Both the position numbers and the translations under genes were made by a program. From assembly GCF_004354985.1 (NCBI RefSeq), contig NZ_SMSK01000018.1, positions 62,001-126,000 of the forward strand: a stretch of 64,000 nt of DNA. The letters run 5' to 3'. The notes beneath the pieces are model-generated. The model was not told the origin of the DNA, ran no database searches, and saw only the letters and a program-made list of their open reading frames with translations. Below, piece by piece: positions 28,911 to 31,834 of the stretch; position 1 is the first letter of the stretch, and each line of letters starts with the position of its first letter. The stretch is from Segetibacter sp. 3557_3 (GTDB lineage: Bacteria > Bacteroidota > Bacteroidia > Chitinophagales > Chitinophagaceae).

Positions 28911-28914
28911 TTTG

Positions 28915-30174
28915 ATGATATTGAGCAAACTAGCCGACACCTTAATCGGCTCCGAGATCGTAAGCCTTGGCAACCAAATAAACGACCGGATACGCCAGGG
29001 TGAGAAAATTTACAACTTTACAATCGGAGACTTCGATCCCAGGATATTTCCAATACCAAGGGAACTTGAAGAAGAAATAATCAATGCTTACAGGAATCAC
29101 CAAACAAATTATCCCCCCGCTGACGGTGTTGCTGAATTAAGATCTGCAGTCTGTGGATTTCTTGATACCTATCATGGATTGAAATACGAGGCAAATGAAG
29201 TGCTTATCGCAGCAGGCGGACGTCCGCTGATTTATTGTATATTCAGGGTGATCGTTGATCCGGGTGATAAGGTCATTTATGCTGTTCCATCCTGGAACAA
29301 CAACCATTATGTGCACATGAACAATGGGGTTCATTGCACCCTTGAAGCATTACCCGAACATAACTTTATGCCTACTGCAGAGCAAATCGCTCCGCACCTG
29401 GATGGTGCAACCCTCTTATGCCTCTGCTCGCCCCAAAACCCAACCGGCACTACCCTGCAAAAAGAAGACCTTGAACGTATTTGCGACCTGGTGATTGCAG
29501 AAAATGCAAAGCGGGGCACCGGAAAAAAGTTATATGTACTGTACGACCAGATTTATAGTGTGCTTACATATGGGGAAATCAGGCACTATGATCCTGTAAG
29601 TCTGCGCCCTGAAATGCGGGATTACACCGTATTTGTCGACGGTATCTCAAAAGCATTCTCTGCTACCGGTCTGCGGCTGGGGTGGTCGTTTGGCCCGGCA
29701 ACCATTATCGCTAAGATGAAGGCGATACTCAGCCACCTCGGCGCATGGAGCCCAATGGCTGAACAGAAAGCCACTGCTGTGTACCTTAAGAAAACCCCGG
29801 AGATCAACGCATACCTGGCTAATTTTAAATTAGAGGTGGAGGAAAGATTACGACGTATTTACGACGGATTTATGGTCCTCAGGAAGATGGGTTATAAAGT
29901 AGACGCGATAACACCACAGGCTGCTATTTACCTGACCATCCAACTAGATCTCACGGGGCAAAGAAAGCCTGATGGTGCCGTGCTTGAAACCCAGGCAGAC
30001 GTAACTTCTTACATTCTTGGAGAAGCAAAGATTGCGGTGGTACCGTTTTATGCGTTCGGTGCAAGCCGTGACTCAACATGGTACCGACTCAGCGTAGGCA
30101 CTTGTATCAAAGAGGAGATTGATAATATGCTTTCGAACCTGAAAAATGCCTTGGACGGGCTTAAAAATGATTGA
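28915..30174 (+). CDS. PLP-dependent aminotransferase (class I/II, aspartate aminotransferase-like)
   Basis: 419 residues from the ATG at 28915; a TTG just before is in frame. The fold-type I signatures are present: YPPADGVAELR, the SPQNPTGT loop, YDQIYSVL, and the PLP-binding Lys246 in DGISKAFSATGLRLGW; the C-terminal Arg region is WYRLSVGT. It transfers amino groups between an amino acid and a 2-oxoacid; aspartate or an aromatic/branched substrate cannot be told apart here. Stand-alone gene with a promoter element immediately before it. Confidence 0.9.
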   Translation: MILSKLADTLIGSEIVSLGNQINDRIRQGEKIYNFTIGDFDPRIFPIPRELEEEIINAYRNHQTNYPPADGVAELRSAVCGFLDTYHGLKYEANEVLIAAGGRPLIYCIFRVIVDPGDKVIYAVPSWNNNHYVHMNNGVHCTLEALPEHNFMPTAEQIAPHLDGATLLCLCSPQNPTGTTLQKEDLERICDLVIAENAKRGTGKKLYVLYDQIYSVLTYGEIRHYDPVSLRPEMRDYTVFVDGISKAFSATGLRLGWSFGPATIIAKMKAILSHLGAWSPMAEQKATAVYLKKTPEINAYLANFKLEVEERLRRIYDGFMVLRKMGYKVDAITPQAAIYLTIQLDLTGQRKPDGAVLETQADVTSYILGEAKIAVVPFYAFGASRDSTWYRLSVGTCIKEEIDNMLSNLKNALDGLKND

Positions 30175-30273: not shown

Positions 30274-30522
30274 CTAGTTCTTGTTGCAAATAAATACAAA
30301 TGGCTTTAACGACGGCTGCCTGATCAGCTTTTCAATCAGGTGAGGCTTGCTGATGATCCGGTAGCGGTTTACGTCGATGATTTCGTTGGCGGTGCAGAAG
30401 TTGGTCATCGTTTCTGTATTGAACAAAATCTCATGTAGCATTTCAACCTCATGTTCAAGCTCACGAGGATCAAGCGCAACTTTTTTGGACAGAACTAAGA
30501 GGTCTCTTTTTGATGATTTCAT
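30274..30522 (-). CDS. Small hypothetical protein (82 aa), partner of tiny lipoprotein
   Basis: 82 residues, soluble, without signal or membrane segment, with an acidic middle (DPRELEHEVEMLHEIL) and a basic N-terminus. I do not recognise a family. It lies 36 bases downstream of the 43-residue lipoprotein gene on the same strand and probably shares its transcript. Codon usage looks like that of the neighbours, and no better frame covers the interval, so I think it is real. Confidence 0.55.
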   Translation of the reverse strand: MKSSKRDLLVLSKKVALDPRELEHEVEMLHEILFNTETMTNFCTANEIIDVNRYRIISKPHLIEKLIRQPSLKPFVFICNKN

Positions 30523-30558
30523 ACGAAAATCTTTGCAATGGTTATTTGTTCAAAGCAC

Positions 30559-30690
30559 TTACCCTACTGATTTTCTGGACGGACATCCGCAAGCTTTTTT
30601 AGCGTTTGACTTACCAAGAACACTACAGCCCGAGAAAGTTACGGTGGCAACAAAAAACAATAAGATGGTTAGCTGATTGATCCTTTTCAT
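30559..30690 (-). CDS. Tiny Cys-rich lipoprotein (43 aa)
   Basis: ATG at 30690, TAA at 30559. The first 21 residues are a lipoprotein signal (MKRINQLTILLFFVATVTFS then G-C) with lipobox FSGC, giving lipidated Cys22. The mature part is only 22 residues and ends KKACGCPSRKSVG. The CGCPSRK end resembles a Cys-Gly-Cys-Pro motif that I recall at the C-terminus of other very small Bacteroidota proteins. It diverges from the glycosyltransferase gene at 30746 with 55 bases between the two starts. Probable cell-envelope peptide of unknown role. Confidence 0.65.
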   Translation of the reverse strand: MKRINQLTILLFFVATVTFSGCSVLGKSNAKKACGCPSRKSVG

Positions 30691-30745
30691 AAAAATGTAT
30701 TCCCGAAAATAATTAATTAATATCTATTTATTAAGCTAATCTGAA

Positions 30746-31834
30746 TTGACCGAAAAATTTAACAGTAAAGTCCTGGTCGCCGCGCTTGACTGGGGTTTGG
30801 GACATGCATCCCGGTGTGTTCCCATCATACAACATTTCACAAACCTTGGATTTGAAGTGATGATTGCAACAAGTGGAATGCAGAAACAATTTTTTCTATC
30901 CGAGTTCCCAAATCACCAATACATTAACCTGGAAGGTTACAACATTCGTTATACTAAGAGCAAACGTTGGTTTGCAACTAAAATTTTGTTCCAGGTACCA
31001 AAGATCATCAAGGCGATAATTTCAGAGCACCTACTGCTTCGATCTATAACAAAAAAACACAATATTAGTGCCATCATATCCGACAATCGTTATGGCTTTT
31101 GGCACCGCAAAATCCCTTCTGTTTTTATAACCCATCAGCTGTCTATAAGAACACCTTTGCTGGTAAAAAGGTTGGTTCAGGTTGGAAATTATATGTTCAT
31201 TAACCAATATGCTTTTTGTTGGATACCCGACGTGGCCGGGCCCATCAACCTTGCCGGTTCACTTTCGCATCCGCGAAGATTACCCCGGATAAAACTCCGG
31301 TATCTTGGGGGGATTAGCCGCTTACAACTAACCGGTGCTACAACAGTTCTTTATGACGTGATGGTGATCATATCCGGCCCTGAACCGCAGCGATCCTTCC
31401 TGGAAGCGACGTTGCTTGAAGACCTGAAAACGTTCCGCGGCAGGGTGCTGTTTGTTCGGGGTTTGCCGGGTAATGCGCCGCAACTTGGGTCTTTTAACCA
31501 GGTGAGTATCTTCAATCACCTGCCGGCAACAGAACTGTCGCTGGCTTTTGAGCAAAGCGGGATGATCATTAGCCGTAGTGGCTATACGACAGTTATGGAC
31601 ATCATCAAAATGAAAAAACGCGCCATCCTCATTCCTACACCCGGCCAAACGGAACAGGAGTACCTGGCTGAACATTTGAAAAGTCAGTACTGGTGTTACA
31701 CAACAACTCAGCACCAGTTTAAGCTTCAGGCTGCACTTTCAGCAGCGGAGACTTTCCCGTATTGTTTGCCGGACATCAACATGGAGGAATACAAATTGGT
31801 AATAAACGAATTTGTAAGTAATCTGCACGGCTAA
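30746..31834 (+). CDS. GT28/MurG-like glycosyltransferase
   Basis: 362 residues from a TTG start; no upstream ATG is in frame without a stop. The N-terminal Rossmann half has KVLVAALDWGLGHASR (nucleotide-loop GLGH), and the C-terminal half has RSGYTTVMDI and PTPGQTEQEYLAEHL, which match the UDP-sugar-binding C-terminal motif of the MurG/GT28 group. This is the UDP-GlcNAc:LPS GlcNAc-transferase-like family often annotated in Bacteroidota. Acceptor unknown. It diverges from the tiny lipoprotein gene. Confidence 0.82.
   Translation: MTEKFNSKVLVAALDWGLGHASRCVPIIQHFTNLGFEVMIATSGMQKQFFLSEFPNHQYINLEGYNIRYTKSKRWFATKILFQVPKIIKAIISEHLLLRSITKKHNISAIISDNRYGFWHRKIPSVFITHQLSIRTPLLVKRLVQVGNYMFINQYAFCWIPDVAGPINLAGSLSHPRRLPRIKLRYLGGISRLQLTGATTVLYDVMVIISGPEPQRSFLEATLLEDLKTFRGRVLFVRGLPGNAPQLGSFNQVSIFNHLPATELSLAFEQSGMIISRSGYTTVMDIIKMKKRAILIPTPGQTEQEYLAEHLKSQYWCYTTTQHQFKLQAALSAAETFPYCLPDINMEEYKLVINEFVSNLHG

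Follow-up and report, generated by a model that had tools for sequence, protein, structure and literature searches.

A conserved dithiol mini-lipoprotein of Bacteroidota, paired with a family-restricted 82-residue protein in Chitinophagaceae and linked to feoA-feoB in other families

The window, a stretch of 64,000 nucleotides, belongs to the genome of Segetibacter sp. 3557_3 (6.75 Mb, 35 contigs), a member of the Chitinophagaceae (the family, below). As translated from the ORF, a 43-residue lipoprotein, MKRINQLTILLFFVATVTFSGCSVLGKSNAKKACGCPSRKSVG, is encoded on the minus strand at positions 30559-30690. It consists of a signal peptide with the lipobox FSGC and a mature part of 22 residues, CSVLGKSNAKKACGCPSRKSVG. 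The codon of the predicted lipidated Cys22 lies at 30625-30627 (minus strand), and the codons of a C34-G35-C36-P37 motif lie at 30580-30591 (minus strand). After a spacer of 36 bp (30523-30558, minus strand), a gene for an 82-residue protein lacking a signal peptide follows on the same strand (30274-30522). The first-pass annotation had described the lipoprotein with its lipobox and 22-residue mature peptide, as well as the 82-residue gene 36 bases after it, and both descriptions agree exactly with the ORF list and the sequence. At 87 family loci, the median spacer between the two genes is 19 bp and the commonest is 12 bp. Upstream, an intergenic region of 55 bp (30691-30745) separates the lipoprotein gene from a divergent glycosyltransferase gene (30746-31834, plus strand), whose product scores above the cut-offs of PF04101 and PF13528 and far below those of the MJ1255/VC2487 (TIGR00661) and MurG models. 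On the other side, a class I/II aminotransferase gene (28912-30174, plus strand; PF00155) is convergent with the 82-residue gene, and an aminotransferase gene is present at 41 of the 60 family loci retrieved as wide regions. The divergent intergenic region carries no enriched Bacteroidota promoter motif: TAnnTTTG was found upstream of the lipoprotein gene at 8 of 74 loci versus a shuffled mean of 6.0, the 74 being what remained of 88 reference loci when 14 were dropped without a criterion.

Is such a short gene real? A search with the lipoprotein alone found matches in 18 of 99 relatives, including two that are likely to be false (L023, with a stop, and L027, inside a long frame). In the alignment A5 of 67 sequences, the lipid Cys and both Cys residues of the CxC motif are invariant, and nothing else is. 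The mature peptides at 87 family loci have 17-27 residues (median 22), a net charge of +3 to +6, and exactly three Cys residues in all 87 cases. The motif is CGCP in 51 of them, CGCG in 12, CMCP in 10, CGCA, CKCP and CRCP in three each, CGCN in two, and another variant in the remaining three. It is followed by 3 to 9 residues, and 59 of the 87 peptides end in G, GY or GF. Thus, the conservation in relatives, whose absence had been named as the refuting outcome, holds for the lipid Cys and the CxC. The C-G-C-P end, which had been suggested to bind metal or to be a conserved terminal signal, stands as a C-x-C, usually CGCP, that may bind metal, while the terminal CGCPSRK, or the SRKSVG end, is variable. 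The shortness of the genes and the failure to find a promoter motif would suit chance ORFs or a leader peptide rather than a functional protein. However, the signal peptide, the lipobox and the CxC are conserved over dozens of genera, and the median dN/dS of the lipoprotein in its own genus is about 0.22 (NG86, nine sequences, 27 of 36 pairs usable), a rough value since many dS exceed 1; for the 82-residue partner, no pair was usable. A chance ORF or a leader peptide is extremely improbable, and the conservation indicates that both genes are real, the lipoprotein gene being kept across many Bacteroidota.

By sequence, the peptide has the signal peptide, lipobox and Cys expected of a signal peptidase II substrate. 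The window lipoprotein reaches 12.1 bits against PF08139, whose cut-off is 20, and it has no matching model in Pfam or NCBIfam. An acidic residue (D or E) at positions +2 to +7 was found in only three of the 87 mature peptides. The Bacteroidetes surface-export signal requires acidic residues early in the mature lipoprotein, as stated in the accessible part of PMC5080379. Since this signal is missing, the lipoprotein probably faces the periplasm.

The 82-residue partner appears to be restricted to the family, whereas the lipoprotein is distributed class-wide. The partner profile matched 213 of 244 Chitinophagaceae genomes and 90 of 101 genera. At the order level, 34 of 198 genomes had a match, 33 of them from the family and one (G743) from another family, which could be mis-binned; at the phylum level, there were eight among 247 genomes, seven being family members and one being weak. 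In the alignment A3 of 88 sequences, E47, F75, F77 and N82 are invariant, and the N-terminal RDLLVL is conserved. AlphaFold2 predicted a mixed alpha/beta fold (pLDDT 88.2, pTM 0.66) with a less certain N-terminus. Foldseek with this model against PDB gave nothing significant (best E 3.8), and VIA-align gave a single match (Z 2.8, rmsd 3.1, 42 residues aligned); residues 1-36 were barely covered by the fold comparison. A3 had no match to PDB sequences, and the partner had none in Pfam or NCBIfam. The 82-residue protein is a near-universal marker of one family, without a known relative. Some genomes have two partner matches; a diverged second copy in G118:C77 (L124:6959-7213, minus strand) has neither the lipoprotein nor the glycosyltransferase as a neighbour, and two matches were found in several other genomes as well.

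Do the two small genes always go together? Their co-occurrence, which the first-pass annotation had proposed to analyse, was confirmed, with the lipoprotein gene placed directly upstream of the partner gene, as in the window, at 88 of the 90 distinct loci (87 by script, plus L107, whose lipobox WEGC escaped the pattern). The two exceptions are L087 and L064, the latter being a diverged paralogue without the glycosyltransferase. Sixteen of the 90 loci were not found through the partner, fifteen coming from the lipoprotein search and one being the window; of the 74 loci to which the partner led, 72 have the lipoprotein. A second set of 80 loci fetched with the partner, which overlaps the set of 90, has the lipoprotein in 77, and two of the three loci lacking it are from Arachidicoccus. 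The four genomes of the genus g19 that were examined (L236, L237, L240 and L241) all have the partner but no lipoprotein, and five loci have the lipoprotein without a partner match (L235, L238, L239, L250 and L255). These loci rule out an obligate pair; the lipoprotein and its partner are separable. A small lipoprotein and a small cytosolic protein in one unit might also recall a toxin-antitoxin, bacteriocin-immunity or lysis-lipoprotein pair. That explanation was rejected as hardly credible because the genes are separable, and the locus is near-universal in the family with conserved neighbours.

Another conceivable explanation is that, in the Chitinophagaceae, the lipoprotein, the 82-residue protein and the divergent glycosyltransferase form a trio acting on an envelope glycan. 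The glycosyltransferase gene is divergent at 89 of the 90 partner loci and at all 60 wide family loci, and sequence distances of the partner are correlated with those of the glycosyltransferase (Mantel r 0.35, null maximum 0.21). However, the glycosyltransferase is itself class-wide (105 of 149 genomes), and such a CxC lipoprotein was found at none of 27 glycosyltransferase loci outside the family by a strict scan, which would miss non-canonical lipoboxes. Outside the family, the lipoprotein accompanies feoAB instead. Thus, a glycan-related trio seems quite improbable.

A profile search revealed full-length relatives of the lipoprotein throughout the class, with CDCP, CNCP or CGCP motifs, and CxxCP was found by direct scan. 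The profile matched 239 of 247 genomes at E up to 0.1, a tally that is uninformative on the family because the matches are mostly through the signal peptide. Of the wide regions around 20 matches, 19 of them outside the family, 18 contain a recognised lipoprotein, and FeoB is the next large gene in nine of these. At the FeoB loci read in detail, a FeoA ORF lies between the lipoprotein and FeoB; FeoA was identified by profile closely behind the lipoprotein in G578, G573, G568, G589, G534 and G403, and FeoB and SprT were assigned by Pfam. Of 40 full-length matches from other families, 18 are found at most 3 kb upstream of their genome's FeoB gene and on its strand, versus none of 51 signal-only matches (Fisher p 2.4e-8), among profile matches listed down to E of about 1e-3, with the window's family, about 37 matches in genomes without a listed FeoB place and one match in G613 left out. 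The association was also seen from the FeoB side. A lipoprotein with C-x(1-2)-C-P was found within 900 bp upstream of feoB in 12 of 35 families, where the background frequency in the remainder of these regions (7 in 362 strand-kb) predicts 0.6, and Pro follows the second Cys in all 12. The sample represented 40 families by a single region each, the FeoB frame being unrecognised in five, and its scan accepted C-x(1-2)-C, which is wider than the C-x-C of the family-locus scan. The regions were hand-chosen, as a rule around the best-listed FeoB of the family, except in f87, where a contig edge led to another choice.

The genes 5′ of the lipoprotein vary between families while the lipoprotein-feoA-feoB trio is constant, which argues against mere inherited order, although sprT often follows. 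Part of this order may nevertheless be plain inheritance, because the synteny extends to SprT and the aminotransferase. CxCP mini-lipoproteins outside the family were also seen in a second context (L286, L289, L305 and L295), where the neighbours, named by eye, are DUF368-like membrane, shikimate-dehydrogenase-like or DedA-like genes.

How is the window locus related to the feo locus? At L303 (f106) and L389 (f113), glycosyltransferases related to that of the window (36% and 31% identity, respectively) are divergent from a lipoprotein-feoA-feoB-sprT array, and at L287 and L293 (f72), a relative of its aminotransferase (52-54% identity) lies downstream of feoB-sprT. The window thus has both ends of the feo locus, with the 82-residue gene in the position of feoA-feoB-sprT. 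The shared glycosyltransferase and aminotransferase flanks indicate that a feo locus was the ancestor of the window locus, the feoAB slot now being occupied by the 82-residue gene. The ancestral order would have been a glycosyltransferase gene divergent from lipoprotein-feoA-feoB-sprT-aminotransferase. In the window's family, feoA and feoB would have come to lie elsewhere, and a new cytosolic 82-residue protein, perhaps with a regulatory role, would have taken their place. Two family genomes (L421 and L422) still carry FeoB on the contig of the locus, no more than about 7 kb away. It was also observed that feoA and feoB are split apart in this family, while they are adjacent in many other sampled families.

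Because of its slot behind the lipoprotein gene, the partner was tried as FeoA. It has no match to PF04023 (window protein at E up to 10, 88 members at E up to 0.01). The idea of a FeoA stand-in was also dropped because all 80 genomes searched have a FeoA match, some of these matches lying in frames of about 220-260 residues, which I take to be probably DtxR-type regulators. FeoC models likewise gave no match within the same limits (E up to 10 for the window protein, up to 0.01 for the 88 members). As to the winged-helix fold of FeoC, the comparison of the partner model with PDB produced no significant match. FeoB is present in 67 of 70 family genomes. In the window's own genome, feoB is on another contig, C15, and a stand-alone FeoA-sized match lies elsewhere, on C34.

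I tentatively propose, with somewhat less than even confidence, that the lipoprotein is a dithiol accessory, anchored in the envelope, that takes part in handling ferrous iron, the binding of iron being presumed. A lipid anchor would hold this small class-wide protein in the membrane, most likely facing the periplasm, as a short, flexible, basic peptide in which the dithiol C-x(1-2)-C, mostly with Pro after it, is the sole fixed feature. It would most likely act at the outer face of the inner membrane, where, close to the opening of FeoB, the dithiol may bind Fe(II) or prevent its oxidation; a comparable role has been suggested for the Cys-rich peptides found in other Feo systems. The invariance of the CxC, while the rest of the peptide varies, supports this proposal, as do the linkage to feoA-feoB in other families and the flanks shared with the window locus. 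On the other hand, the lipoprotein is beside feoB at none of 20 FeoB loci in its own family, 22 of the 40 full-length matches from other families lie away from FeoB, and 23 of the 35 families have no lipoprotein at feoB. Two genomes of the family, G017 (CGCN) and G034 (CGCA), keep the lipoprotein without a FeoB_C match.

The retention in these two genomes would suit the main rival to the ferrous-iron reading, namely general thiol chemistry in the envelope, in which the lipid-tethered CxC would be a small disulfide reductase or isomerase and its placement at feo mostly an inherited order. Both CxC and CxxC variants occur, and CXC peptides are PDI mimics. The CXC disulfide is strained and favours mixed disulfides, according to the accessible part of PMC12509089. 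In addition, a sister lipoprotein in the window's own genome adjoins a bacilliredoxin gene. Thiol chemistry alone, however, leaves the feo linkages in 12 of 35 families and 18 of 40 matches, with their differing flanks, unexplained, and I consider it possible but unlikely. The sister lipoprotein (G000:C11 587089-587187, about 2089-2188 of L426, minus strand) ends in ...FSSCASSRRGCPSHNPRYFRA and has one mature Cys (GCP); its neighbours are the gene of the BrxC monothiol bacilliredoxin (PF11009, 123 bits) and a divergent Mur ligase gene. A similar single-Cys peptide was found at L304 in G013. Returning to the ferrous-iron reading, a lipoprotein that occurs class-wide, with a single invariant dithiol and its gene directly before feoA, would be a small, readily testable candidate for an extracytoplasmic part of Feo.

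A literature search found no paper on a small or hypothetical lipoprotein upstream of feoA-feoB, and nothing related on CXCP lipoproteins; the accessible part of PMC8749426, a paper on feo evolution, does not mention any lipoprotein. LptM (NF047847) is likewise a small envelope lipoprotein, and its model covers the signal and the start of the mature part. This model aligned with L021 over residues 1-22 only (14.9 bits, cut-off 27.7), and no mature motif is common to the two. FeoC is a cytosolic winged-helix protein, and FeoC models gave no match for the lipoprotein. The two are alike in being small and Cys-bearing, FeoC being counted among the Feo accessories in the accessible part of PMC8749426. 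According to the same part of that paper, the function, and even the translation, of small Cys-rich Feo accessories is still an open question (PMC8749426).

Four loci (L366, L367, L369 and L370) have long feoB frames of 793-839 residues, which probably encode fused FeoAB, with a Cys-rich membrane ORF downstream, and the lipoprotein is absent at all four. Two of the four downstream ORFs match PF12669 just below the cut-off. It is conceivable, albeit doubtful, that the lipoprotein is an undescribed lipid-anchored C-x(1-2)-C-P part of Feo that captures or reduces iron and replaces the Cys-rich transmembrane peptide of the fused-FeoAB lineages, and that the Chitinophagaceae uncoupled it and added an 82-residue regulator of a new fold. 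PF12669 had no match in the window lipoprotein (E up to 10) or in 10 relatives (E up to 1). The PF12669 peptide resembles the lipoprotein in being a tiny, membrane-held, Cys-rich peptide of Bacteroidota feo loci whose function is unproven, as described in the accessible part of PMC8749426. It is encoded downstream of feoB and has a cluster of about four Cys residues. In contrast, the lipoprotein has a lipobox and two mature Cys residues in C-x(1-2)-C, as in C-x-C-P, and its gene precedes feoA-feoB in 12 of 35 families and is unlinked to them in its own family. The lipoprotein therefore stands outside PF12669 by sequence and position, but the two may work alike.
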